Source of the DNA: Fibrobacter sp.
GTDB lineage: Bacteria > Fibrobacterota > Fibrobacteria > Fibrobacterales > Fibrobacteraceae
Reading direction: 5' to 3'
DNA length: 59,351 nucleotides
Assembly: GCF_017551775.1 (NCBI RefSeq)
Contig: NZ_JAFZKX010000039.1
Span: 1-59,351 of the forward strand
The translations under genes and the position numbers were made by a program. Below the pieces are notes generated by a model. It had not been told where the DNA came from and did not search any database. It saw only the letters and a list, made by a program, of their open reading frames with translations. Shown here one piece after another: positions 1,227-53,521 of this stretch; position 1 is the first letter of the stretch; each line of letters begins with the position of its first letter.

Positions 1227-4200
1227 ATGAAAAAGAGTTTTCATGTGTTTTTCGTGTTTGTGCTTATCGCCATGTTCACTGCGATAGCAAACGCCGGTCA
1301 GGTAACGCTGCAAGCGAGCGATGATGGCCAGTACATCAATATGCCGACCTCCGGGACGGATACACTCGTTATCCCCTCGGGCGTGACGTCTTTCACCGTG
1401 TATGATGATGGTGGGGAGAATGGAAACTATAGTAATAATGTAGACGGGCTTCTGGTTTTGATTGCGCCAGAAGGGTTATCTTTTGCTGTTTCTGGAACGT
1501 TGAATACAGAATCGTGCTGTGATGCCTTAGCCATTTATAAAGGCGATATTAATAATGATGAACGTCTTTTGAATGGAAGAGGAGAAGGTTTTGAAATTGA
1601 AACACAGATCATCGCTGATGCTACTATTGCGTTGCTATTCATGTCGGATGGAAGTGTAACGCATTCAGGGCTTGAATTGAATGTTTCTGTGGGCGATGTT
1701 TCGGCTTCACACACGGTAACATTGAATACCGCTACGGGAGGGACTGTTACTAGCAACAAAACGGAAGCTGCTTTTGGCGAAGAAATAACCTTGACGCTGA
1801 CCCCGAGCGGGAACAATGTGATAAAGGGGGTTTCCGTTGTTGATGAAAACGGGAACGTTGTGAAAACTTCGAAAATCAATTGGTATTCTGGTACTAATAC
1901 GGCGAAGTTCATCATGCCTGGCAGCAATGTTACTGTAACGCCAGAGTTTGTGGGGAGCATTTCTGCGGCTGATGGGGACTTTATCAATATGCCGGCATCG
2001 GGAACAACGTCTATCACAATTCCTGCGGGCGTGACATCGTTCAAGGTGTATGACAATGGCGGTAAGGACGGAAACCATGACTATAATGCTGATGGATATC
2101 TTGAGCTTTTCGCTCCGACGGGGTATTCTTTGGCTTTGTCGGGTACTGTGAATTCTAGCGAAGGATGCGGTTATGTTACAGTTTATGATGGCATTAGTGC
2201 GAATTACCAGATTTTAGATGAAAAAACGGGTTTGAAAACGGACGTTGGGCCTGCTGTCAGCACGGAAAATGTGATGACAATTAGATTCAGTTCAGATAAT
2301 TGCCCTGTAGAAGCGGGCCTTGACTTGACAGTGACTCTTGTGGATAAGACTGTTCCTCATGAGATTACGCTGAATAGTGTTGAAGGGGGAACCGTCAGCA
2401 GCGACAAGTCGTCGGCAGCTATGGGGGAAACGGTAACATTGACTCTGGCTCCGAGTGAAAACAAACTGTTAAGTAATGTTTCGGTTATCGGTGCTGATGG
2501 AACACCGGTAGAAGTGACAGGAGGAAACTGGTATTCTGGAAATACGGCGACATTTGTGATGCCTTTCCAAGAGGTTCAGGTGACAGCCGTATTCGTAGAC
2601 GCAGTTACGGCTGAAGGAGGCTCCTTTATTAATATGCCTGTTTCAGGAGAGGAGCATATTACAATTCCTGCGGGCGTGACGTCGTTCAAGGTGTATGATG
2701 ATGGCGGCAAGAACGGGAAATATAGCGACAATGCAAATGGGACTCTTTCTCTTGTTGCGCCGGAAGGAATGCAGCTGATGATTTCGGGAACGATGAAGAC
2801 CGAAGGGTGCGATGAAATTACAATCCTAGATGGCGAATATGGTTATGAAACGCTTTTTGGAACAACTGGTGGAGAACAGGATATAGATCCGGTGGTCAGC
2901 ACGTTGGGCGGCTTGATGATTCGGTTCGAATCGGATGGAAGTGTTGTTTATTCAGGTCTTGATTTGACCGTAACTGTTGTTGACATGAATACGGAGTACG
3001 CAGTGACAGTGAATAGCGCTCCTGGAGGGACTGTAACCAGCAATGTTTCTTCAGCCAAAGTGGGCGATGAAATTGCCTTGTCGATTACACCGAATAAAGG
3101 ATTCCTGTTGAGTGGACTGGAAGTCAAGGGAACGGAAGATCAACAGCTTATTAAGGTTAATGGTGGGGAATGGTACTCTGACAATGATATGGCCTACTTT
3201 AAAATGCCGCGCGAGAATGTGACTGTGACTCCCGTGTTCACGAATGACCTTACGGCAGAGGGCGGATTAAAAGTAGATATGCTTTCTAATGCTTATAAAC
3301 AATATGTTTATGTGCCCGAAGGAGTGCGCTCGTTTAGGGTCAAGTACGAAGAATATGCCGATTATTCCTCTACTTATTTGACCCTGTATGCTCCGGAAGG
3401 GTATGTCTTCCGGGTTGAGGATCTAGAGGACGACGTGTCAGCGGAGTATTTCCAGATTCTTGATTATAGTGATTATGGAGATAATTGTATTTGGGGATAC
3501 TGGTGCGGTAATGTATCGTCGTCGGTTTCTAGTTATAGCGACAATCTAACGATGCGTGTTGAAGCACAGGAGGAAGAATTTACCCTAGACATGAAGGTGA
3601 CTCTTGTCGATGCGACAAAGGCGCATGCTATTAATATTGCTACAGGCATACAGGGTGGAAGTGTCCAAAGTGAAGTTAGCTCCGCTATGCTGGGAGAGTA
3701 TGTGAATTTGACGGCGACACCTGATGAGGGCTTTTTGCTCGCTTCCATTGATGTCGTTGATTCTGTCGGGAATGTGGTGAAAGTTGACAATGGCCTATGG
3801 TATTCTGAAGGTGCGGCTTATTTCAAGATGCCGGCCTATCATGTTACAGTCACGCCTACATTTACGGATGACCTAAGTAACCTTTCTATCAATATGCCTA
3901 CTGATGGAAACACAATTATGGCGAATATTCCTGCCAACGTAACCTCGTTCAAGGTTTACGATGATGGCGGTCCGGATTTTGAATATACCAAGTCTTCCGG
4001 ATCCAACTATATAGTGATGAATGCTCCTGAGGGATTTATTTTCCGGATAACGGGTTCTGTGTCCACGGGGTCGGAGAATGATTATCTGCGTATTATTGAC
4101 GGGGATCGTTCCGGAGACATTCTGTTGAATGGTTTGAGCGGATACGGGAAAGATGTTGGAACTTATTATAGTTCGGGCCGTCTGATGACATTGATGTTCT

Positions 4201-7061
4201 ATACAGGTAGTAGCGGAAGCCCGTTTGATGGCTTGGATTTGACTGTAGAACTTGTCGATGCTTCTACGGAACATACAATAACACTTGCCCAGAACAGTTC
4301 AAAGGGAACATTGACTTCGGATAAGACAAGTGCAGCGACAGGCGAAACGGTTACATTGAATGCTGTCCCAAAAGAGGGATATTTGCTAAAGGAAATTCGC
4401 GTTACGGATGCGAATGGAAATTCTAAGAAGGTAACTGGCGGTACATGGGCGACATCGAATACCGCGACATTCATGATGCCTTATTCGAATGTTAACGCGG
4501 AGGCCGTCTTTACGGATAATTGGACTTCATCTGTGCTGTATGTCAATATGCCTGCATCGGGGAATATGACTGTAGATATTCCTGAAGGCGTATCCTCGTT
4601 CTTGGTATATGATGATGGTGGAATAAATGCGAGCAGTGCTTTGAACGCGAATGGACATCTCGTATTGAGGGCGCCCATTGGGTATACTTTGCAGGCTTTG
4701 GGCTCAATAACCGGTCGTTATATGGGAATAGCGAGTTTGTCTATTCATGATGGGGATTCTTCCGCCTCTGTAATTACAACGGTCTCGTCTGAATTTATGG
4801 GCGGGACGAAGAATGTCGCAACTGTGACGAGTTCTGGGAACGTGATGACGCTAGATTTTTCTTGCCGGACTATGATGATGGGAAATGGAAATCCGGCAGA
4901 TATGCGGTTGGTCGTGACGCTTGTTGCGGCTGAGGCACACGAAGTTGCTTTGGGTGAGTATACAGGCGGAATGGCTTCTATTGACAAGGCGACGGCCTAT
5001 CCTGGTGAAACGGTGACGTTGACGACTCATTCAGAAACGGGCTATTTGCTTGCCGGAGTCAATGTTGAAGATGCTGAACACAACACAATAAAAGTGTCGG
5101 AAACCACATGGGATGCCGACAATACAGCGACATTTACTATGCCGAATGCAAGTGTTACGGTTACACCGAACTTTACGAACGATTTGACTGCGGCGGGTGG
5201 GCTTTATCTGAGACTGCCTTCTGGAGGAGCGTCGAAGACGTTTACTGTTCCTGAAGGGGTGACTTCGTTCAAGCTTTATGCAGCTGATATTGATGAGGGC
5301 CTCTGCAGTGGTAAAGAATCGAGTACCAACTCAATTGAACTTTCTTCCTCAAATGGGAGTAATTTCCTGGTTGAAGGAACGATAGCAGAGGATTCTTGGC
5401 TGCAAATAGGTGAAAAGATATCGGATGGTGAATTTGCTCCCATGCCGGTTCGGCAATATAGCGGCTATACATCTACAGATATAGGTCAATATCAGAGTAC
5501 GAGTGGTACAGTGACGATTTCTTATGATCGCTGTCAAGATCTGGATTTGACAGTAACAGTCGGTGGTGTTGCTACATCGTATACAGTGGCGATTGCTAGT
5601 GCTACCGGTGGTACGGTGTCAAGCAATAAGGAAACAGCGTTTGCGGGCGAACGGGTGGGATTGTCGATAACTCCAGATAATAATCATGTGATAGAAAGGC
5701 TCCTTGCCGACAATCCTAGTATTATCTCCTCAATTAAGACTGCTTGGTATCGTTCTAATGATGTCTATTTCACGATGCCGGCTGCAGATGTGACGATTAC
5801 CCCGGTATTTAGCGATGCGCTTACCGCAGAAGATGGGCTGTTTATCGATATGCCGAGTGGATGGAATGAAGTTGATGCGACTATTCCGAAAAATGTTAAG
5901 TCGTTTAAGATATATGATGATGGCGGCGTAGATGGTAATTATTCTACGTATACTGGGAGTTCGATTGTTTTGTTCCCTCCAGAAGGGTTTGCCATAAGGC
6001 TGTCGGGAACGATGACAACATCGCAGAGTGGCTCCCTCCAGATTTATGCCGCTGATAATATGTATGGTGAAACTTCTGAATATAATGTCATGAGTGCTGG
6101 AGAAGGGTTGACAACGGATATTGGAACTATCACAGGTAGATATCTGCAGTTGAGATTTACTCCGTGCGATGACAAGTTGTGCGTAGGGTCTTATTCCGGG
6201 CTTGACATAACAGCGACGCTGGTGAAGTCTACTCACTATGCGGCTGTCAACGTCAATGAAGATGAAAATGGTCACATGGTGGCGACAATTGACGGCAACT
6301 ATGATGATTATGACGAAATTGAAATCCCGGTTGAGATTCCGGTCGATACAGTCGTGCTGAACCGTACGTTCAGCAATCAGACCGGCTACTCCACGATTGT
6401 GCTGCCCTTCAATATCTCTCGCGATAAGATTGAGGGCTTGGCGGATGTCGCTGAGTTTGGAGGTATTGGAATCAATCCGGAAACAGGCAAGAAAGAGGTT
6501 GTAATGTACCGCGTGAATGGTGAACTACAGGCGAATACGCCCTATGTAATCCAGATGTCTGGCTCCTCACTTGTATTCCATGGCGCTGTAACGCTGCAGC
6601 CGACTGTGGAACCCGTTACCAAGATTGGAGAATGGGAATTCCGGGGAACCTTGGGTAAGATGGAGTGGTACGATGGTCATGAGGATCTTGGCAAGGTCTA
6701 CGGCTTTGCTGCGGGAAGCGGTGACGATGGCCTCGTAGGCAAGTTCGTGAAGGCTGCTCCGGGTGCGTGGATTACAGCCTTGCGTGCTTATATCATCAGG
6801 AATCCTGCGTCGTACGCAAGGGGCTTGGGTTCGGCTGCAAAGCCTGCTGCCGTAGATGCATCTATTCCTGACCAAATGGAAGTAGTAATTGTCGACCGTC
6901 CGTCGGATGATGGTGAAGAACATACGACAGTCATCGGGCGCATAAATACCCGTACGGGCGAATTCACGATGGAACGTAATTACGACCTCAAGGGCCGTAA
7001 ACTGAACGGGAAGCCGACTGTACGCGGCATGTACTACGGTAAAAAGAAGATTGTAAAGTAA
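1227..7061 (+). CDS. Giant secreted modular protein: 8 CUB-like and 7 InlB/Flg_new-like modules, T9SS-like tail
   Basis: A 1944-residue protein with a signal peptide (cut near ANA-GQ, residue 23). It alternates two module types. The CUB-like module carries an (I/V)(N/D)MP motif near residues 37, 252, 468, 683, 888, 1105 and 1539, with the diverged seventh copy near 1327, then a V-S-F-x-V-Y-D-D-G-G motif. The second module, seven copies, has a GGTV-S-N/D-K start and a WYS...FxMP...VTP-F ending typical of divergent InlB B-repeat/Flg_new domains. The repeat period is about 205-220 residues. The last ~85 residues end in a YDLKGRKLNG...RGMYYGKKKIVK-type tail, resembling T9SS sorting domains. AAGGA lies 9 bases before the ATG. 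The domain reading is mine and unverified. A surface-anchored or secreted adhesin or matrix protein is likely; no catalytic domain is seen. Confidence 0.85.
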   Translation: MKKSFHVFFVFVLIAMFTAIANAGQVTLQASDDGQYINMPTSGTDTLVIPSGVTSFTVYDDGGENGNYSNNVDGLLVLIAPEGLSFAVSGTLNTESCCDALAIYKGDINNDERLLNGRGEGFEIETQIIADATIALLFMSDGSVTHSGLELNVSVGDVSASHTVTLNTATGGTVTSNKTEAAFGEEITLTLTPSGNNVIKGVSVVDENGNVVKTSKINWYSGTNTAKFIMPGSNVTVTPEFVGSISAADGDFINMPASGTTSITIPAGVTSFKVYDNGGKDGNHDYNADGYLELFAPTGYSLALSGTVNSSEGCGYVTVYDGISANYQILDEKTGLKTDVGPAVSTENVMTIRFSSDNCPVEAGLDLTVTLVDKTVPHEITLNSVEGGTVSSDKSSAAMGETVTLTLAPSENKLLSNVSVIGADGTPVEVTGGNWYSGNTATFVMPFQEVQVTAVFVDAVTAEGGSFINMPVSGEEHITIPAGVTSFKVYDDGGKNGKYSDNANGTLSLVAPEGMQLMISGTMKTEGCDEITILDGEYGYETLFGTTGGEQDIDPVVSTLGGLMIRFESDGSVVYSGLDLTVTVVDMNTEYAVTVNSAPGGTVTSNVSSAKVGDEIALSITPNKGFLLSGLEVKGTEDQQLIKVNGGEWYSDNDMAYFKMPRENVTVTPVFTNDLTAEGGLKVDMLSNAYKQYVYVPEGVRSFRVKYEEYADYSSTYLTLYAPEGYVFRVEDLEDDVSAEYFQILDYSDYGDNCIWGYWCGNVSSSVSSYSDNLTMRVEAQEEEFTLDMKVTLVDATKAHAINIATGIQGGSVQSEVSSAMLGEYVNLTATPDEGFLLASIDVVDSVGNVVKVDNGLWYSEGAAYFKMPAYHVTVTPTFTDDLSNLSINMPTDGNTIMANIPANVTSFKVYDDGGPDFEYTKSSGSNYIVMNAPEGFIFRITGSVSTGSENDYLRIIDGDRSGDILLNGLSGYGKDVGTYYSSGRLMTLMFYTGSSGSPFDGLDLTVELVDASTEHTITLAQNSSKGTLTSDKTSAATGETVTLNAVPKEGYLLKEIRVTDANGNSKKVTGGTWATSNTATFMMPYSNVNAEAVFTDNWTSSVLYVNMPASGNMTVDIPEGVSSFLVYDDGGINASSALNANGHLVLRAPIGYTLQALGSITGRYMGIASLSIHDGDSSASVITTVSSEFMGGTKNVATVTSSGNVMTLDFSCRTMMMGNGNPADMRLVVTLVAAEAHEVALGEYTGGMASIDKATAYPGETVTLTTHSETGYLLAGVNVEDAEHNTIKVSETTWDADNTATFTMPNASVTVTPNFTNDLTAAGGLYLRLPSGGASKTFTVPEGVTSFKLYAADIDEGLCSGKESSTNSIELSSSNGSNFLVEGTIAEDSWLQIGEKISDGEFAPMPVRQYSGYTSTDIGQYQSTSGTVTISYDRCQDLDLTVTVGGVATSYTVAIASATGGTVSSNKETAFAGERVGLSITPDNNHVIERLLADNPSIISSIKTAWYRSNDVYFTMPAADVTITPVFSDALTAEDGLFIDMPSGWNEVDATIPKNVKSFKIYDDGGVDGNYSTYTGSSIVLFPPEGFAIRLSGTMTTSQSGSLQIYAADNMYGETSEYNVMSAGEGLTTDIGTITGRYLQLRFTPCDDKLCVGSYSGLDITATLVKSTHYAAVNVNEDENGHMVATIDGNYDDYDEIEIPVEIPVDTVVLNRTFSNQTGYSTIVLPFNISRDKIEGLADVAEFGGIGINPETGKKEVVMYRVNGELQANTPYVIQMSGSSLVFHGAVTLQPTVEPVTKIGEWEFRGTLGKMEWYDGHEDLGKVYGFAAGSGDDGLVGKFVKAAPGAWITALRAYIIRNPASYARGLGSAAKPAAVDASIPDQMEVVIVDRPSDDGEEHTTVIGRINTRTGEFTMERNYDLKGRKLNGKPTVRGMYYGKKKIVK

Positions 7062-26390: not shown

Positions 26391-27314
26391 ATGAAGTTTA
26401 CCCATTTTGCCCTTGCCGCCGTCTCCTGCGCAGCAGTGATTGCCTGCGGCGGTAACAAGAACGCTGTCCCCGAGACGGAACCGACTCCCGCTCCGGCCCC
26501 TGCCGCGGCTCCCGTGACCGAGAAGCCGATTTCCCTGGATAGCGCGGTCGACCGCTACAGCTATGCGCTCGGCATGGACCTGGGCAAGGCTATCGCGAAT
26601 ATCAGCGTGCCCCTCAAGCTCGACGTCATCATCGAGGCCATCAAGGACGAGGTGGATTCGAGCCGCAAGGTGCTCTTGGCGGATTCCGCTGCGGAAGCGG
26701 CCCTGCAGGACTTGCTCCTTAAGATGCAGCAGAAGAAGGAAGCCGACGAGAAGGCCGCCGCGAAGAAGGCGCTTGACGAACAGGCCGCGTTCCTCGCCAA
26801 GAACATCGTGGATTCCACGGTGAAGGTCACCACGAAGGGCGTGCAGTACAAGGTAATCAAGGACGGCGCGGGCATTACGCCCAAGGCCTCCGACAAGGTG
26901 CAGGTGCATTACGTCGGCGCCTTGCTCGACGGTACCGAGTTCGACAACAGCGTGAAGCGCGGCGAACCGCTCGAGTTCCCGGTAAGCGCGGTCATCGAGG
27001 GCTGGCAGGACCTGCTCCAGGTGATGAAGGAAGGCATGAAGGTGAAGGCCTGGATCCCGAGCGCCCTTGCCTACGGCGAGGCCGGCGTGCCGCCGATGAT
27101 TCCGGCGAATGCGCTCCTCGTGTTCGAAGTCGAGCTACTGAAGGTCTTTACCGAAACTCCGGCTGTCGATACGACTGCTGCTGCACCTGCTGAAGGCGCT
27201 GCTGACGCCGCGAAGCCGGAAGCTGCCGCTGTCGAAGAGGCGAAGCCCGCCCCCGAAGCAGCAAAACCCGCCACAAAGCCGACGAAGAAGGCCGAAAAGA
27301 AGGCGAAGAAGTAA
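26391..27314 (+). CDS. FKBP-type peptidyl-prolyl isomerase lipoprotein
   Basis: A 307-residue lipoprotein (AVIAC lipobox, Cys19) with an Ala/Pro/Thr linker, a helical FkpA-like N-terminal domain (DSAVDRYSYALGMDLG and the Lys/Glu/Ala helix near 100-135), and one FKBP domain (VHYVGALLDGTEFDNS, then WIPSALAYGEAG, near 165-245). The end is an Ala/Pro/Lys-rich tail (KPTKKAEKKAKK). FkpA/Mip relatives fold proteins in the periplasm; the lipid anchor puts this one on an envelope membrane. The argA-like gene starts 33 bases later with no terminator between. Confidence 0.93.
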   Translation: MKFTHFALAAVSCAAVIACGGNKNAVPETEPTPAPAPAAAPVTEKPISLDSAVDRYSYALGMDLGKAIANISVPLKLDVIIEAIKDEVDSSRKVLLADSAAEAALQDLLLKMQQKKEADEKAAAKKALDEQAAFLAKNIVDSTVKVTTKGVQYKVIKDGAGITPKASDKVQVHYVGALLDGTEFDNSVKRGEPLEFPVSAVIEGWQDLLQVMKEGMKVKAWIPSALAYGEAGVPPMIPANALLVFEVELLKVFTETPAVDTTAAAPAEGAADAAKPEAAAVEEAKPAPEAAKPATKPTKKAEKKAKK

Positions 27315-39255: not shown

Positions 39256-40860
39256 TCAGAAGAAAAAGCCGGTGGTTACTTGCGCGTGCGTGGGGTGAAA
39301 ATTCGTTTTTTCGGAGCGCTGGAAGGCGGCCGTGAGCGAAAACTCGAGGTGGTCCCCGTAGATGCGTGTTTCGGTGCGGATTTGCATCTTTTTGTCGGGA
39401 CGGGCCTCCGGGGCGACGAACGATATGCGGAAGGAGTTCCTGCGGTTGCCAGTTGAGGACGGCGCTTTTTTGCTTGAGGAAGACAGAGTTTTATTGTTAA
39501 TTGAAGACCGCGCTTTATTGCTGGTAAAAGACTGCGCCTTGTTGCTGGATAAAGACAGCGCGGCCTTCTCGGTGAGCGCGATGGCGATTTCGAGACGCGG
39601 CGCCTGCCAGGAATGCTCGGAGCGCTCGTGTCGGGTGCGCGCCCCGCCGGAAAGCGTCGCGGTTGTCTGCCCGAAGGCGTGCGACGAGGAGAAGTTTGCC
39701 TGGTATAGGGCCTGGTCGCATTCGCTTGCCGCCTCGACGCATGTGAATTTCAGGGCGGGGCGCGCAAATTCCGGCCCGCCGGCGATGTCCAGGGAGAGCC
39801 TCCCGGAGATGCTGTCGGAATGCAGGGGCTTCGTGACCCGAGCGCTGGCCGTGGCTTTGGTGTCGAAGAATTCCTTCGCGCGGAACGAGACGTTCTGCGT
39901 GGACCAGAAACTGTTCTTGAGGATGCTCGGGCTTAGCCGTGCGGGGGCCGGGACGGAATCCCCGTGGATGTAGCCGGTGGTGCTCCACGAGAAGGCGGCG
40001 TCCCGGCCCTGGAACGAGAATCGCACCAGCGGGAAGGATTGTCCGGCCTGGTACCACGCGGAGATTTTTCCCGAGGGGGCGACGAGCGTGAGGCTTGCTG
40101 ATGGTTGCGGCGCGGCTGCGGGAAGGACTTGCGCGGAGTCTCCCGCGGCGTTCGCGCTTGCGTCTGCCGCAGGGTCTGCACCTGACGCGGGGTTCGTGCC
40201 CGCATTTTCCGCAGGGCCCGTGGTTGCTGCGGGGCTTGTTGCGACGTTCGTACTTGTTGCGGGAATAGTGCCTGCGCCGGCCCAGAACGCCGCCTGTGCC
40301 GAGAATTTGGAGAACGGTCCGGCGGCAAGCCCGAAGTTTGCCGCCCTGGAGGTATCGAGCATCGCCGAAAGCCTGAATTTGCCGAGCGCGTATGCGATTG
40401 CTGCGCCCCAGAGGGTGTCGAGCGGGATTTCGGAATGCAGTTCCCGCGTGGAGATTTGCCCGAAGTGCGCTTCGCCCCGCTTGCTTTTGTAGGTGAGGAG
40501 TTCCTGCGCGCCGAGCTTGAGGGTGAGCCTGCGGAATTCGAACTCGAAATCGTGGCGCTGTGCCGAGAGCGCGCCCGAGGAATCGAACCGCAGTTTCGCG
40601 ATGTAGTGCCCGCTGTAATGCTTCCGCACGGAATCGAGCGCGGGTCCGGAAAAAACGTCGCATGCCTCGCCGGCGTAAACTTCCGCCAGGGCGCACGCCT
40701 CCCGCATGTCGCCTTCGTCCATCAGCGCGAGCATCTCGTCCGCCTCTTCCGGGGTGACGATGCCGTCGTCCCACCATTCGAATATCCTGGCCTCGGTAAG
40801 TTCCGCTGTCAGTGCCCGCGCTGCCGCAAGCAGCGCTATCAAGAAAAGTCTCTTGCCCAT
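39256..40860 (-). CDS. Outer-membrane-like protein with helical N-terminus and 8-residue repeats
   Basis: 534 residues with a signal peptide. The N-terminus has a helical segment ILTEAR-like followed by EWWDDGIVTPEEADEML, then a Glu/Ala-rich part with Cys pairs (ACALAEVYAGEACDVF). The middle and end alternate beta strands and finish in TTGFFF, suggesting a barrel. Between lie an Ala/Pro/Thr-rich linker (about 205-255) and, near 440-475, an imperfect 8-residue repeat with SSNKAQS and SFTSNKARS. The function is unknown; I have seen no confirmed family. AGGGAAA precedes the ATG. Confidence 0.75.
   Translation of the reverse strand: MGKRLFLIALLAAARALTAELTEARIFEWWDDGIVTPEEADEMLALMDEGDMREACALAEVYAGEACDVFSGPALDSVRKHYSGHYIAKLRFDSSGALSAQRHDFEFEFRRLTLKLGAQELLTYKSKRGEAHFGQISTRELHSEIPLDTLWGAAIAYALGKFRLSAMLDTSRAANFGLAAGPFSKFSAQAAFWAGAGTIPATSTNVATSPAATTGPAENAGTNPASGADPAADASANAAGDSAQVLPAAAPQPSASLTLVAPSGKISAWYQAGQSFPLVRFSFQGRDAAFSWSTTGYIHGDSVPAPARLSPSILKNSFWSTQNVSFRAKEFFDTKATASARVTKPLHSDSISGRLSLDIAGGPEFARPALKFTCVEAASECDQALYQANFSSSHAFGQTTATLSGGARTRHERSEHSWQAPRLEIAIALTEKAALSLSSNKAQSFTSNKARSSINNKTLSSSSKKAPSSTGNRRNSFRISFVAPEARPDKKMQIRTETRIYGDHLEFSLTAAFQRSEKTNFHPTHAQVTTGFFF
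39458..39556. repeat. 24-bp tandem repeats coding an 8-residue motif
   Basis: Units begin with GAC at 39458, 39482, 39506, 39530 and 39554, exactly 24 bases apart, with strong divergence in sequence. They keep the reading frame of the minus-strand protein (x-S-S-N-K-A-x-S), so this is a protein repeat, not a CRISPR. Confidence 0.75.
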
Positions 40861-41781: not shown

Positions 41782-43965
41782 TTAGAACTTGAACAGCGCG
41801 CCGAAACGCATCTGGCCGTCGCGCACGCCGTCGTTGTCGCCCACGTCCATGATGGTGGCGAGGTCGAACTGCAGCATGTCCGAAATCATGAACCCGATAC
41901 CGAAATCGGCTTCGTTGCGCTTGCCGGTCTGGTCGTAGAGGTAACCGAGACGGATAGCGACGGTGTTCGCGTAAATAAATTCAGTACCGACGTTGAACAC
42001 GCCCTGCAGCAGGGAGTTCTTGAACGCGGTGAATCCGTGCCCGCCGCGTTCTGGATGTCCGATGGACTTCCAGCAGCTGATGTAGAAGGGTTCCGGATCG
42101 CCCTTGTCGTCATCGTACACGACTTCGCGGTTGTAGTCGGCGGCGATGGTGAGCTTGTAGTCGGCGAGAGAGAGGATTTCGTAAGAAAGTCCCACGCGCC
42201 AGGTGAGCGGAATCGGGTCTTCGATGGTCTTGTCGACGTAGTAGACGCTTGGGCCGATGTTCGCGAGAACGAGGGCGAAGTTCAACTTGTCGATGAAGAG
42301 GTCCTTCTTCAAGATGCCGATGTCGAACGCGTAACCGAAGGTGGTCGCTTCTTCTTCGCCCACTGCTGCACCGGAGCTCAGGTCGGAATAGAACAGCTTG
42401 ATGGAGAGGCCGAGGCCCCAGTTGTTCGGGAAGCGCGTGCCGTAGCTGAGACCGCCCACGATTTCGGAACTGTTGTAGGCGACGAGGTCCTCGGCTTCGA
42501 TATCGCCCGAGACGACGGTGGAACCGAAGCTCACGAAGTTCACGAAGAATCCGAGGGTTCCCCATTCGGCGACGGGGATGGTCATGCCACCGAAGAGGTG
42601 GTAGAGGTCAGGAATGTTCAAGATGGGCAGGAGCTTTTCGTAGAACGCGACGAGCTGGTAGTCGGCGTCCTTGTAGAGTTCCATGCCGTTCGCGGTGCTG
42701 AACCACACGTCGTTGCCCTGCGGCAAAACCTTCCATACCTTGTTCGACGAAAGTCCGTTGCCCGAATGGAAGTGCAGCCATTCGTCGTCCTTCTTGACGC
42801 TGCCTTCCTGTTCGGCGACTCCGCGTTCAAGTTCGGCCTTGCGTCCGCTGGCGGTGGCGTAGTCGGGCAGGTGGCGCCATACGCCCTTGTCTGTCGCGAT
42901 CCAGATGTGTCCCTTCTGGTCCACCGAGAGGTCGTTCACCACGTTGCCTTCGAATTTCACCTGTTCCCACTTGCGCAGGTTGAAGTGGCTGAGGCCGCCC
43001 TTGTGCGCCGCCCATACGTGCGAGGAACTGTCTACGGTGAGTGCCGTCGGGTGCAGGTCCATGATGCCGTCTTCTTCGGTGAAGAGGCTCCAGCGGTCCT
43101 TGTCGTTCACGCTCTTCTTGGGTACGAGCCTTGCGATGCCCGCGCCGTCGACCGCGACATAGAGTTCCCTGCGTTCCTCGGACCACACGAGCGCGTTCAT
43201 CTTCTGGCTCGGGAGCACCTTGCCTTTCTGTTCGAACTGCCCGTTGCGGTACAGGAACAGGCCGTTGTCCGTACCGATCCAGAGCGAGGCGCCCTGGTTG
43301 GCGAGGGCGGTGATGCGGTGGGAGCCGAGTTCGCTTTCGTAGCTCTTCCAGGCCTTGCCGTCGAAGCGGTAGAGAGCCTTCGGGGTACCGACCCAGAGCT
43401 TTTCGGTGCGGTCTTCGTAGAGGATGGCGGTGATGGTATCCTTCACCACGAGGTTCCACGGGATTTTCACTTCCACCACGTGCGATTCGTCGTCGGCATT
43501 CTTGATGTCGTTGAACTTCTTGACCTGGCGGGTGTATTCGTCGAGCCCGCGTTCGGTGCCCGCGAATACGCGCACGGCGTCCCTGATCTTCGCGTTGCCC
43601 TGCAGGGTCACGGTGTGGTAGTCCACCCACTGTTCGCTGTCGTATTTCAGGATGCCGTTGACCGTACCGGCCCAGAGTTCGCTCTTGGAGAAGAACCCGT
43701 TCTTGGAACGGCTCGCCATCTGCGTGAAGTGCGGAGCCTTCTTGCCGTCGGCGGCGTAGGACATCTTCCATTCGTCGGCGAGGGGCCCGAAGGCGAGTCC
43801 GGCTGGGTTATAATACATAGCGGAGGCATCGTCGGCAAGCGCTGCGCCGACTTCGCCCATGCCCAACTGGCGTGCGCCAACGGGCATTTCGAGGGTGATG
43901 ATTGCCGAACCTGCGGCAAGTGATATGGCGGGTAAAAAAAGTAACGAGAGTAGAGTCTTACGCAA
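41782..43965 (-). CDS. PorV-like outer-membrane protein with inserted beta-propeller
   Basis: About 727 residues. After the signal peptide, the start (TLEMPVGARQLGMGEVGAALADDASAMYYNPAGLAF) is the PorV/PorQ signature of T9SS outer-membrane proteins. Then, from ~95 to ~450, at least six propeller blades of the LWVGTxxGLYRFDG type (ELWAGTVNGILKYD, SLWIGTDNGLFLYR, HIWIATDKGVWRHL) interrupt it. The barrel resumes near 460 and runs to the end (GFFVNFVSFGS, LGLSIKLFYSDL, ending FGALFKF). Start: TTG 43963-43965 has GGAGG 4 bases upstream and a clean signal peptide; ATG 43987-43989 is an alternative. It overlaps the preceding gene by 8 bases. Confidence 0.85.
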   Translation of the reverse strand: MRKTLLSLLFLPAISLAAGSAIITLEMPVGARQLGMGEVGAALADDASAMYYNPAGLAFGPLADEWKMSYAADGKKAPHFTQMASRSKNGFFSKSELWAGTVNGILKYDSEQWVDYHTVTLQGNAKIRDAVRVFAGTERGLDEYTRQVKKFNDIKNADDESHVVEVKIPWNLVVKDTITAILYEDRTEKLWVGTPKALYRFDGKAWKSYESELGSHRITALANQGASLWIGTDNGLFLYRNGQFEQKGKVLPSQKMNALVWSEERRELYVAVDGAGIARLVPKKSVNDKDRWSLFTEEDGIMDLHPTALTVDSSSHVWAAHKGGLSHFNLRKWEQVKFEGNVVNDLSVDQKGHIWIATDKGVWRHLPDYATASGRKAELERGVAEQEGSVKKDDEWLHFHSGNGLSSNKVWKVLPQGNDVWFSTANGMELYKDADYQLVAFYEKLLPILNIPDLYHLFGGMTIPVAEWGTLGFFVNFVSFGSTVVSGDIEAEDLVAYNSSEIVGGLSYGTRFPNNWGLGLSIKLFYSDLSSGAAVGEEEATTFGYAFDIGILKKDLFIDKLNFALVLANIGPSVYYVDKTIEDPIPLTWRVGLSYEILSLADYKLTIAADYNREVVYDDDKGDPEPFYISCWKSIGHPERGGHGFTAFKNSLLQGVFNVGTEFIYANTVAIRLGYLYDQTGKRNEADFGIGFMISDMLQFDLATIMDVGDNDGVRDGQMRFGALFKF

Positions 43966-44524
43966 GCTGCCTCCAGTCGGGGACGTCATAGGTGTTTCCG
44001 TGATTAGGTATGACCGCTTTCCATCCGGATTTACTCGGGTTCTCCCAGGGCTGCTTAGGCAAGAGCTTGCAGTCGCAGCCGAGCACGTACGGCGGGAGGA
44101 TTTCCGCGTGGTTCCGGATTTGTTCGCGGGTGATGAAATTTTCTTCGGGGACGAACTTCACGTATTGCTTGCCCTTCGGGCCGAGTTCGATCCTGTAGGT
44201 GACGGTGCCGTTCTGGTCACCTTCGTCAATAGTCTTGATGGTTTCCTCGATAGCTGCTTTCCAGTTGTCGAGATATTCCTTCCGCTGCTCGGGGGTGAGC
44301 TGCTCTTGCGTTTCGAGCCATGCGCGGATGGAATTGTCGGAGGGTTTTACCGCCGTGAGGGATTCTCGGGCCGGGCGGACGACTACGGCGTACTTGCCGG
44401 ACACGTCGATGACCGGCTTGACTTCCTCTTTTTCGTCAGCGCTATGGATGACCACATAGGCTCCAATTCCTGCGAGGATGACGGACAGGATGATGATAAC
44501 TATGACAATGATGACTGATAGCAT
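43958..44524 (-). CDS. One-helix membrane protein upstream of the PorV-propeller gene
   Basis: 188 residues. A single N-terminal membrane helix (about 4-27: VIIVIVIIILSVILAGIGAY) is followed by a charged, acidic domain with VSGKYAVVVRPARES and a later LGPKGKQYVKFVPEE segment, Cys pair CDCK near the end. No family recognised. GGAAAAG precedes the ATG. Its end carries the start of the PorV-propeller gene (8-base overlap), so the two are probably a functional pair. The helix may anchor it in the inner membrane with a periplasmic domain. Confidence 0.75.
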   Translation of the reverse strand: MLSVIIVIVIIILSVILAGIGAYVVIHSADEKEEVKPVIDVSGKYAVVVRPARESLTAVKPSDNSIRAWLETQEQLTPEQRKEYLDNWKAAIEETIKTIDEGDQNGTVTYRIELGPKGKQYVKFVPEENFITREQIRNHAEILPPYVLGCDCKLLPKQPWENPSKSGWKAVIPNHGNTYDVPDWRQLA

Positions 44525-44600: not shown

Positions 44601-45839
44601 ATGTTAAAAATGAAGATTTTTCTTGTTCTGTTGTTTTCCAGCGTGGTATGGGCCATCCCTTTCAATGTAGAAGTGGTAAAAACGGGCGATGGCGACGAAA
44701 TCCGTTCGGGGCAACTTATCAAGGTGCATTACAAGGGCTATCTCTATACAGACATTGTAAAGTTCGATAGTCTGAAGGCCGCTGCGCCCGCCGAATCCGC
44801 CGAGAAGGCGAAGCAGGATTCCGCTGCCGCTGCCGATGCTGATACTCTCACGCCGTTTGCCGATACCTATGCAACCGGAGAACCGCTCGAATTCACGATT
44901 GGCGTGGGCCAGGTGATTGCCGGCTGGGACAAGGGTATTGTGGGAATGAAGGTGGGCGAAATCCGCAAGCTCACGATTCCCTATGTGATGGCGTACGGCG
45001 AGAACTCGCTCGAAGGCATCCCTCCGTATTCCGATTTGTATTTCGAGGTGGAACTTGTCGCGGCCGAAAAGCCCATGGAACCGGACGTTTTCCCCAAGGA
45101 TTTGAATAAACTAAAATGGCAGGACAAGGGCAAGGGCCTCAAGGTGTTCGACGAGAAGGCCGGTACGGGCAAGCCTGCCACCCAGGGCACGAACCTCAAG
45201 GTGCACTACACCGGCTGGCTCGTCTCGGGCCGCAAGTTCGGCAGTTCCAAGGATCTGGGCAAGCCGTTCGAAGTCGTGCTTGGCGCGGGCAAGATGATCA
45301 AGGGCTGGGAAGCGGGCCTCGACGGGATGCGCGAAGGCGGCGTGCGCTGGCTGCGCGTGAGCCCCTCCATGGGTTATGGCGCGAGCGCGTTCACGATGAT
45401 TCCGCCGAACTCCACGCTCGTGTTCCGCATCGAACTCGTGGAATCGATGATCGACCCCGAAATCGCTGCCAAGATGGACTTCTTCCCCGACACGACGACG
45501 CTCACGTTTGAACATGGTTCCGAAGGTCTCCGCTATGCGATTATCCAGCAGGGCGAAGGCGAACCCGCCAAGGCCGGTGCTAACGTGAAGGTGCATTACA
45601 CGGGCTGGCTCACGAACGGCTACAAGTTCGACAGTTCGCGCGACCGCGACCAGGCGTTTGCATTCCCTCTGGGCGGTGGTCGTGTCATCCGCGGCTGGGA
45701 CCTCGGCGTGGCGGGCATGCTTCCGGGTGAAAAGCGTATCTTGATCATTCCGCCTGGACTCGGGTACGGCAGCCGCGGCGCGGGCCCCATCCCGGGCGGT
45801 GCAACTCTCATATTTGCAGTGGAGTATCTGGGCGAATAA
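44601..45839 (+). CDS. Exported protein with three FKBP domains
   Basis: 412 residues: signal peptide (MKIFLVLLFSSVVWA) then three FKBP-type peptidyl-prolyl isomerase domains, about 20-155, 175-290 and 305-412. Each keeps VHYKGYLYT/VHYTGWLV/VHYTGWLTN and G-W-D/E-x-G-I/L-G/A-G/D-M. Domain 1 carries a ~40-residue Ala/Asp/Glu insert after the first strand and keeps the IPYVMAYGE strand. AGGAG lies 5 bases before the ATG. The stop and the DUF1538 ATG share one base (TAATG), which suggests coupled translation. A chaperone/isomerase role in the envelope is inferred. Confidence 0.92.
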   Translation: MLKMKIFLVLLFSSVVWAIPFNVEVVKTGDGDEIRSGQLIKVHYKGYLYTDIVKFDSLKAAAPAESAEKAKQDSAAAADADTLTPFADTYATGEPLEFTIGVGQVIAGWDKGIVGMKVGEIRKLTIPYVMAYGENSLEGIPPYSDLYFEVELVAAEKPMEPDVFPKDLNKLKWQDKGKGLKVFDEKAGTGKPATQGTNLKVHYTGWLVSGRKFGSSKDLGKPFEVVLGAGKMIKGWEAGLDGMREGGVRWLRVSPSMGYGASAFTMIPPNSTLVFRIELVESMIDPEIAAKMDFFPDTTTLTFEHGSEGLRYAIIQQGEGEPAKAGANVKVHYTGWLTNGYKFDSSRDRDQAFAFPLGGGRVIRGWDLGVAGMLPGEKRILIIPPGLGYGSRGAGPIPGGATLIFAVEYLGE

Positions 45840-51516: not shown

Positions 51517-52344
51517 CTAGAATAGGATTGTGAAGCCTACGGTAGCGTATGTCGTCAGGAAGTTCGATTCCCTGAAGGCGTTCTCGCCGCCGGAAATCAG
51601 GATCTTGTCCAGCAGGTTCGTGAAGCCTTGCACGATGCGGATGTTCATCTGCACCCAGCGGGTCACCATGTAACCGAGATCTAGAGCCGCACCCATTTCG
51701 AAGCTCGTCGTGGGGATGGTATTGCTGCGCGTGATTTTTTCGCCTACATCCTGGTTGAATTCCGACGATCCGGAGAGCTTGAGGCCGAGGTTCAGGCCGA
51801 GGCCCAGGAAAATGTTGTTGTCGACAAACGTGTAGCGAACGATGAGCGGGATTTCGAACATCATGATGTCGATTGACGCATCGTCATTGCCGAAGTCCGT
51901 CTCGGCCGCGTAGCGGTAATGACGGTAGGTGAATATCACTTCGGGAACAATGTTCAAGTTCTTGACCCCGAGCGGCAGCTGCATCAGCAAGCCTGCGGAA
52001 CCCTGGTATCCGAGTCCCCATCCTTCGGTTTCGTGACCGATGAACGTGTTTGTACCGGCGCTTGCGTGCACGCCGAGCAGGATAGTACGCGCGAACCCTT
52101 CGGTACGCTGCTTGTTGATTTCGGCCTTGGAAGTCTTTTCCTTCTTGTACTGGGCGTATTCGGCTGCATACTCCTCGTCGTCGGCAAACTCGCTTGCTGC
52201 CGAACCGTCATACTCCACCGCACTGCCGTTGTCGGTAGAAGAGGTCGTTTCGTCGTTGTCGAAATCGTCAAACTCGTCTGCGAGGGAAGGCGTTGTTGCG
52301 GCGAGCAGGGCCGCGGCCATGAAGGGTACAATTCTCAGGTTCAT
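51517..52344 (-). CDS. Outer-membrane barrel protein with acidic N-terminal region
   Basis: 275 residues: signal peptide (cut near LAD), an Asp/Ser/Glu-rich region to ~70, then a PorT-like barrel with strands such as LLGVHASAGTNTF, IVPEVIFTYRHYRY, FLGLGLNLGLKL and MVTRWVQMNIRIVQGFTNL, ending in TVGFTILF with terminal Phe. Closely related to the next gene upstream. No ribosome site is seen; TATAAT lies 6 bases before the ATG. Confidence 0.85.
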   Translation of the reverse strand: MNLRIVPFMAAALLAATTPSLADEFDDFDNDETTSSTDNGSAVEYDGSAASEFADDEEYAAEYAQYKKEKTSKAEINKQRTEGFARTILLGVHASAGTNTFIGHETEGWGLGYQGSAGLLMQLPLGVKNLNIVPEVIFTYRHYRYAAETDFGNDDASIDIMMFEIPLIVRYTFVDNNIFLGLGLNLGLKLSGSSEFNQDVGEKITRSNTIPTTSFEMGAALDLGYMVTRWVQMNIRIVQGFTNLLDKILISGGENAFRESNFLTTYATVGFTILF

Positions 52345-52474: not shown

Positions 52475-53521
52475 CTAGAGGTAAAGCGACAGCCCGAGGG
52501 TCACGTGTAACCCGTACAGCGATGCTTTCTTGAGCGCGATTTCGGAGACTTCGACTACGTCGTTGTTCAGGAGATTCGTGAATCTCTGCAGGAACCGCAG
52601 GTCAACGGAGAAGTTCCTGTTCACGAGGTAGCCTATTTCCACGATGGCACTGAGTTCGACACCAGCCGAGGGGAGCGGATCGTCCTTTGACGAGATGTGT
52701 TCCGTCGTCGTACTGGTACTGATAGTTTGGTCAAAATTGGAGGACCCGGCGAGCTTGATTCCCAGGTCTAATCCGATGCCGACTGTGATGTCGTTGCTTT
52801 CGAGGGCATACTTGAATATGGCGGGGACTTCGAAAAGAATCACGTTGAGCTGGGCTTCATCCTTCTCGCTGTAATCGTCATATTCGAAATCGTCATTGGC
52901 CTCGTAGCGGTAGCGGAAGTAGCTGAACTGGAGCCCGACGGAGAGTGACAGTTCGGGGATGCCGACTTTGGTTTGTGCGACAATTGCGGCCGAGGCCTCG
53001 TATCCGAGTCTCCAGTTTTCCGTTCTTTCGCCCAGGAGGAGCGTGTTGAAACCGCCGCCGAACCGGAAACCGAGCGTGAACCCGTTGGAAAAGCCTTCAC
53101 GGCTTGCGCGGCTGAGTTCCGCGTTCTCGTTGGCGTAGCGGTCGTAGGTGTCGTCATCGTCGTCGTCGTACCTGCTGACGCTCTTGTCGTCCCTGCATTC
53201 AGGCAGGAGCGAGTCTGCCGGGGTGCAGTCCTCTTCGTCGCTGTCGTTTTCGGCTGTTTTTTCCTTGGCGGCAGTCGTGGTATCGCTTTCGGCAGAGGCT
53301 GCCGTTCCGGTTTCGGAGGTCGCAGCTGTTTCTGTCCCGTCACAGCCGTCCCCGATACAAGCGGGGGTCTCTTCGTTGTTCCCGTCGTTCAGTTCCGTGC
53401 TGCCCCCGTTCTGGGATGCAATCCAGGCAGAATCGACTTCGGCGGGGTACTCGTCCTGAGCGAGGGCGGAGCAGACTATCCCCGAAAAAAAGATGGCGGT
53501 AAGTACCCTAAGCAGTTTCAT
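52475..53521 (-). CDS. Outer-membrane barrel protein, paralogue with longer acidic linker
   Basis: 348 residues with a signal peptide (cut near ALAQ), then a long acidic linker (to ~145, rich in Asp, Glu, Thr, with ETPACIGDGCDG and a DDDDDTYDRY run), then a barrel like the 51517 gene: LGFRFGGGFNTL, LSLSVGLQFSYFRYRYE, IFKYALESNDITVGIGLDLGIKL, NRNFSVDLRFLQRFTNLL. Terminal residues are LGLSLYL. These two tandem genes clearly share ancestry. The linker may project from the membrane or bind cations. No ribosome site; TATAAA lies 8 bases before the ATG. Confidence 0.85.
   Translation of the reverse strand: MKLLRVLTAIFFSGIVCSALAQDEYPAEVDSAWIASQNGGSTELNDGNNEETPACIGDGCDGTETAATSETGTAASAESDTTTAAKEKTAENDSDEEDCTPADSLLPECRDDKSVSRYDDDDDDTYDRYANENAELSRASREGFSNGFTLGFRFGGGFNTLLLGERTENWRLGYEASAAIVAQTKVGIPELSLSVGLQFSYFRYRYEANDDFEYDDYSEKDEAQLNVILFEVPAIFKYALESNDITVGIGLDLGIKLAGSSNFDQTISTSTTTEHISSKDDPLPSAGVELSAIVEIGYLVNRNFSVDLRFLQRFTNLLNNDVVEVSEIALKKASLYGLHVTLGLSLYL

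Follow-up and report, generated by a model that had tools for sequence, protein, structure and literature searches.

To our knowledge, the type IX secretion system (T9SS) is known almost wholly from Bacteroidota, and the best-studied T9SS bacteria have only a short PorV. Fibrobacter is a gut bacterium and a major degrader of cellulose in the rumen. In F. johnsoniae, the lateral opening of SprA is closed by PorV, which holds the cargo signal domain with its extracellular loops and contacts the SprE/SkpA assembly through its periplasmic base (PMC10994853). Free PorV far outnumbers the secretion channels in P. gingivalis, a result that led to a shuttle model in which abundant, mobile PorV travels between the translocon and the attachment complex (PMC5562754). 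The same species has PorE (PG1058), a periplasmic T9SS protein in which a propeller and a peptidoglycan-binding domain are joined (PMC7192894, PMC5053529). T9SS signals have been reported on cellulases of F. succinogenes (PMC6851124).

Here we describe a gene from a Fibrobacter contig (NZ_JAFZKX010000039.1; the whole stretch analyzed, 59,351 nucleotides, is called the window below) that encodes a PorV-family barrel interrupted, in the predicted structure, by a complete seven-bladed propeller (41782-43965, minus strand; hereafter "long PorV"). No paper describing a propeller-bearing PorV was found in the open-licence literature searched; the long PorV is real and widespread and, as far as that literature shows, an undescribed form.

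Predicted domain layout of the long PorV

The open frame of the gene spans 41782-43989 on the minus strand. Judged from the sequence, its likeliest start is the TTG at 43965, which is preceded by GGAGG at 43970-43974. With this start, the gene overlaps that of a 188-aa partner by 8 bases (TTGCGTAA, 43958-43965), the overlap that an earlier note on this DNA had given; an upstream ATG as the start would extend it to 32 bases. The features of the two genes are as follows.

43958-44524, minus strand: partner gene, 188 aa, with an N-terminal membrane helix, a flexible linker, and a small alpha/beta domain (open frame; model)
44441-44521, minus strand: single membrane-spanning helix of the partner, residues 2-28 (helix in the model; hydropathy)
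43912-43965, minus strand: likely signal peptide of the long PorV, residues 1-18, LRKTLLSLLFLPAISLAA (sequence, TTG start, GGAGG, low pLDDT over 1-18)
43777-43911, minus strand: N-terminal hatch of the PorV/FadL fold, about residues 19-63, GARQLGMGEVGAALADDASAMYYNPAGLA (NF033709 positions 4-53; aligned with PorV 8gl6_F and 6h3i_F)
42664-43776, minus strand: inserted seven-bladed beta-propeller, residues 64-434 (PF07494, model strands, structure alignment at Z 27-28)
43450-43626, minus strand: LysM-derived beta-alpha-alpha-beta segment that lies between blades 1 and 2, residues 114-172, degenerate (model fold; profile-profile match)
41782-42657, minus strand: 14-strand PorV barrel, residues 437-727, and the stop codon (NF033709 positions 48-325; Z 37.8 to 8gl6_F)

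The earlier note had proposed a PorV-type barrel with a whole propeller inside the same chain, and both the profile scores and the structure model agree with this layout. The PorV_fam profile (NF033709) matches the long PorV at 146.2 bits (E 1.7e-42; curated cut-off, 90) in two separated stretches, between which, in a single chain, lies a match to the two-component regulator propeller (PF07494; E 1.8e-11). An AlphaFold2 model of the protein, built on 27 Fibrobacterota sequences, has a mean pLDDT of 83.7 and a pTM of 0.78 and consists of a hatch, a closed seven-bladed propeller that lies within the barrel chain, and a 14-strand barrel. The predicted protein has the hatch and 14-strand FadL-type barrel expected of a T9SS PorV. 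The propeller repeats that the note had recognized are real; their count, put at "at least six" before, comes to seven in the closed propeller of the model. The top foldseek match of the model was PorV 8gl6_F, to which the VIA alignment (Z 37.8) extended over 334 residues of the hatch and barrel, spanning model residues 13-727. Residues 64-434 aligned with ordinary seven-bladed propellers at Z 27-28. The strand directly 3' of the hatch (residues 65-71, WKMSYA) had been a candidate for barrel strand 1; it was rejected as such, for in the model it closes propeller blade 7.

The long PorV of the window scored 86.4 bits against the T9SS PorV equivalog (NF033710; cut-off, 250), and three scanned relatives outside Fibrobacterota scored 155 to 179 bits against the same profile. 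It also fell below the thresholds of FadL/Toluene_X (PF03349; 13.4 bits, gathering score 29.7) and PorZ (NF052228; 19.3 bits, cut-off 260). By score and fold, the protein is a member of the PorV family that misses the curated equivalog, and its role in cargo carriage is putative.

Insertion site and predicted membrane side of the propeller

In short PorVs of other phyla, the profile blocks of the hatch (model positions about 10-75) and the barrel (about 450-740) adjoin directly. In long PorVs, the propeller lies between these two blocks, and all 14 barrel strands follow the insert; in the relative from genome G302, the PorV family profile (NF033709) splits between positions 41 and 42. In the model, the last propeller strand is separated by about four residues from barrel strand 1, which begins on the short-turn side, and the barrel connections alternate between long (9, 7, 12, 16, 40, 4, and 11) and short (3, 3, 7, 3, 3, and 4) ones (one-sided Mann-Whitney test, p 0.004). 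Outer-membrane barrels usually have long loops on the outside and short turns on the periplasmic side. Because the insert lies between the hatch and strand 1, the linker is about four residues long, and strand 1 starts on the short-turn side, the propeller should be located on the periplasmic face, the side being deduced from strand parity and linker length in the predicted model. The expectation that a large domain stands on one face of an outer-membrane protein is supported in this way, and the predicted topology specifies that face as periplasmic.

A LysM-derived segment, absent from the earlier note, was found here within the propeller region. In the model it comprises a strand (116-120), two helices (127-135 and 141-151), and a second strand (165-169). 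The Pfam LysM profile (PF01476; gathering score, 20.9 bits) matched neither the window's protein nor the 26 other Fibrobacterota members, and a profile of the Fibrobacterota segment (A3) found no LysM structure. The link to LysM runs through relatives in other phyla, whose LysM segments matched the Fibrobacterota segment at a profile-profile probability of 96.9%, a comparison in which the other-phylum segments (A4) were chosen by eye, so that profile matches built on them weigh less than independent Pfam matches. Such Pfam matches were obtained from the relatives themselves: PF01476 reached 27.4 bits (threshold, 20.9) in the relative at locus L201, and LysM matched 16 of 37 other-phylum long-PorV chains at E below 0.1 (best, 1.2e-12). 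On these sequence comparisons, the Fibrobacter segment is read as a decayed LysM and that of the relatives as a genuine LysM domain. Peptidoglycan binding may have been lost in the window's protein, which has no direct LysM match.

Distribution, gene neighborhood, and T9SS components

Homologs with an identical domain order, the absence of which the earlier note would have taken against its proposal, were found in Fibrobacterota and in three other phyla. The long PorV gave a strong match in all but six of 167 Fibrobacterota genomes (most of the six are low-completeness assemblies), an earlier search of 60 Fibrobacterota genomes had matched all 13 of the 13 genera covered, and the same order recurs across the phylum at 30-97% identity. 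Outside Fibrobacterota, all 17 genomes searched in one phylum have the long form, as do 115 of 118 in a second at the search threshold (the weaker matches may include fragments). A small third phylum (that of G302) has two families, one with the long form and the other with short PorVs. The latter family (L245, L246, L249, and L250) carries two tandem short PorVs in the place that the long form takes in its sister family, which may reflect a natural loss of the propeller. In a barrel tree, short PorVs came, with modest support, between the Fibrobacterota sequences and the remaining long PorVs; a single clade of all long PorVs was not rejected (p-AU 0.24), and both one and several origins of the insert are compatible with these results.

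Outside Fibrobacterota, PorU, the T9SS sortase, is encoded directly upstream of the long PorV at 36 of 41 loci, and a gene for an M6-like T9SS protein lies downstream at 44 of 45 loci. The adjacent PorU scored 574 to 696 bits at three of these outside loci (cut-off, 420). The M6-like protein (NF052323, below the cut-off in the two that were scanned) is encoded directly 3' of the long PorV at L199 (920-4000), L201 (716-3793), and L200 (6706-9885). This operon of PorU, long PorV, and M6-like protein, together with the spread over several phyla, goes beyond what the earlier note saw. At the six Fibrobacterota PorU loci read, as in the window, porU is absent from the surroundings of the long PorV, and PorU is encoded elsewhere in the genome.

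The window's genome encodes SprA (1125 bits, over the cut-off) and a PorU-like C25 peptidase that conserves the catalytic GHG His and NSFSC Cys (Peptidase_C25, E 8e-72). The long PorV occurs in the same genome as SprA and this PorU-like sortase, which lies, at 359 bits, under the curated cut-off of 420. Among the 17 Fibrobacterota genomes compared, 16 had SprA over the cut-off, and 16 were counted as having a PorU-like sortase; 15 reached at least 334 bits for PorU (of the other two, G144 had a best match of 206 bits and G037 a C-terminal fragment only). The long PorV was the top PorV-family match in all 17; other PorV-family proteins are also encoded in the window's genome.

From homology and gene neighborhood, we favor, at somewhat better than even likelihood, the reading that the gene encodes the working PorV of these bacteria, i.e., the type A cargo carrier of T9SS, with a large periplasmic module in the barrel chain. 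Another PorV-family protein of the genome could be the actual carrier. The long PorV might be a non-carrier paralog, i.e., an outer-membrane anchor or FadL-like channel that is held by its propeller to the wall or periplasm and contributes to envelope integrity. This alternative, which we regard as rather doubtful, draws on the FadL structures that fit the barrel (Z 28-31), the further PorV-family genes, several in number, that these genomes contain, the separation from PorU in Fibrobacterota, the score below the PorV equivalog cut-off, and a near-universal presence that would fit a housekeeping role. However, PorV (Z 37.8) surpasses FadL as a structural match, no Fibrobacterota genome compared has a better PorV match than the long PorV, and other phyla place the same architecture between PorU and the M6-like T9SS protein at most loci.

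Overlapping partner gene and other genes of the window

The partner has a hydrophobic helix (mean hydropathy of 3.4 over 19 residues), and its structure model has a pLDDT of 83. Its alpha/beta domain had no fold match in the PDB, which is not proof of a new fold, and Pfam, profile, and fold searches revealed no recognizable signaling domain and no relatives of known function. A resemblance to phage Mu-F 'PPLHPNCRC' motifs was dropped, as it had no Pfam support and the second Cys is not conserved. A survey bore out the pairing of the one-helix protein with the long PorV that the overlap had suggested: the partner adjoins the long PorV on its upstream side at 155 of 170 Fibrobacterota loci, a count that includes redundant species and overlapping sets and is thus not made of independent cases. 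Several Fibrobacterota lineages with a long PorV lack it, as do the other phyla. The conserved overlap suggests a link between the two genes, and the one-helix protein may be a membrane-bound binding partner of the propeller dock.

The pair could also be imagined as a sensor, with the propeller reading a periplasmic or wall signal or the load of the carrier and the partner relaying it across the inner membrane, such that secretion is adjusted. By sequence, the propeller is indeed closest to the sensor domains that Bacteroides uses in its hybrid two-component systems (4a2l, E 2.4e-55), and the one-helix partner is both overlapping and conserved. We nevertheless consider a sensor improbable, since the partner carries no recognizable signaling domain and does not accompany the long PorV in several lineages and in other phyla, and since two-component-type propellers also serve structurally, as in PorZ.

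Several further genes of the window encode exported or outer-membrane-like proteins. The gene at 44601-45839 (plus strand) runs divergently to the partner gene at a distance of 77 bp; its exported product, found at 133 loci, contains three FKBP prolyl-isomerase domains (161 bits against the BamJ family model; cut-off, 100). A second exported FKBP-type prolyl isomerase is encoded at 26391-27314 (plus strand; BamJ, 97 bits, just below the cut-off). SprA complexes of F. johnsoniae include a prolyl isomerase. The 1944-aa product of 1227-7061 (plus strand) contains CUB and InlB-B-type repeats and ends in LKGRKLNGKPTVRGMYYGKKKIVK. By eye this end resembles a T9SS signal, but none of the T9SS signal models matched the protein at 1e-3. 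An exported protein of 534 aa (39256-40860, minus strand) appears beta-rich by eye and had no Pfam or NCBIfam match at 1e-3. Two adjoining genes (51517-52344 and 52475-53521, minus strand) encode acidic outer-membrane-like proteins with C-terminal ends that look alike by eye, the first of which had no NCBIfam match.

Relation of the propeller to PorZ

No PorZ over the cut-off was found in 21 genomes, and 7 of 27 long-PorV members gave weak PorZ propeller matches. Four genomes outside Fibrobacterota (G302, G317, G169, and G175), all with a long PorV, encode full-length PorZ-like proteins at 142 to 210 bits, below the cut-off. The lack of PorZ, the weak matches, and the linkage to PorU in other phyla would suit an extracellular propeller that substitutes for PorZ and presents lipopolysaccharide to PorU. 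Such a substitution is very unlikely in our view: the insert precedes strand 1 and has short linkers on the short-turn side, the LysM suggests contact with peptidoglycan, and in the four genomes named the PorZ-like protein exists separately beside the long PorV. The idea of a PorZ fused to PorV was rejected as well, because the best relatives of the propeller are sensor propellers and not PorZ. A biologically meaningless gene fusion or assembly artifact has next to no likelihood, being refuted by homologs with an open frame and the identical order in about 160 Fibrobacterota genomes and three other phyla.

Proposed working and comparison with known systems

If the long PorV is a working carrier, then the extracellular loops of its barrel would, in analogy to PorV of Bacteroidota, take cargo at the lateral gate of SprA, and the cargo would be passed on from PorV to PorU. 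The propeller would serve as a periplasmic dock that keeps PorV near the translocon, peptidoglycan, or other parts of the envelope, with LysM, where it is intact, making the contact to peptidoglycan. It would sit on the face that contacts the SprE/SkpA assembly in Bacteroidota PorV. We further raise, as a tentative possibility, that outside Bacteroidota the type A carrier is fixed to the wall and to periplasmic machinery by the propeller and LysM, that translocation and sorting take place at fixed stations, and that the short mobile PorV of Bacteroidota is a derived or trimmed form. Were the carrier normally tied to the periplasm in Fibrobacterota, in two or more further phyla (in nearly every genome searched), and in part of a fourth, the mobile-shuttle picture would not be general; on the favored reading, free "shuttle" movement of PorV outside Bacteroidota is in doubt. 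Fibrobacter cargo is expected to include cellulases (T9SS-type signals, PMC6851124), which would make the gene a handle on the delivery of cellulases to the cell surface. Long and short PorVs share this barrel and differ in a natural periplasmic module, which allows a direct comparison.

Among described proteins, Bacteroidota PorV (F. johnsoniae 6h3i_F and 8gl6_F; P. gingivalis) is the one on which the hatch and 14-strand barrel superpose, and the linkage to PorU in other phyla is a further likeness. The long PorV adds about 370 propeller residues, including the LysM-derived segment, between the hatch and strand 1, whereas the solved Bacteroidota chains are without a propeller insert. The suggestion of the earlier note that the propeller could select or detect secreted cargo gained no support from the present results; in the solved PorV-SprA complexes, cargo is found at the extracellular PorV loops (PMC10994853), i.e., on the side opposite the position predicted here for the propeller. 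PorZ, of the P. gingivalis attachment complex, shares a two-component-type propeller (distant strand match to 5m11, E 1.6e-8), but it stands alone as a surface protein and bears its own T9SS signal, whereas the propeller described here is inside PorV and predicted to be periplasmic. The parallel with PorE is an analogy only: PorE lacks a barrel and is a lipoprotein that carries TPR and OmpA-type domains, and the long PorV has no OmpA-type domain in Pfam. The closest solved sequence relative of the propeller is the sensor propeller of BT4663 (4a2l); there, paired propellers are carried by an inner-membrane kinase, whereas here a single propeller is built into an outer-membrane barrel.
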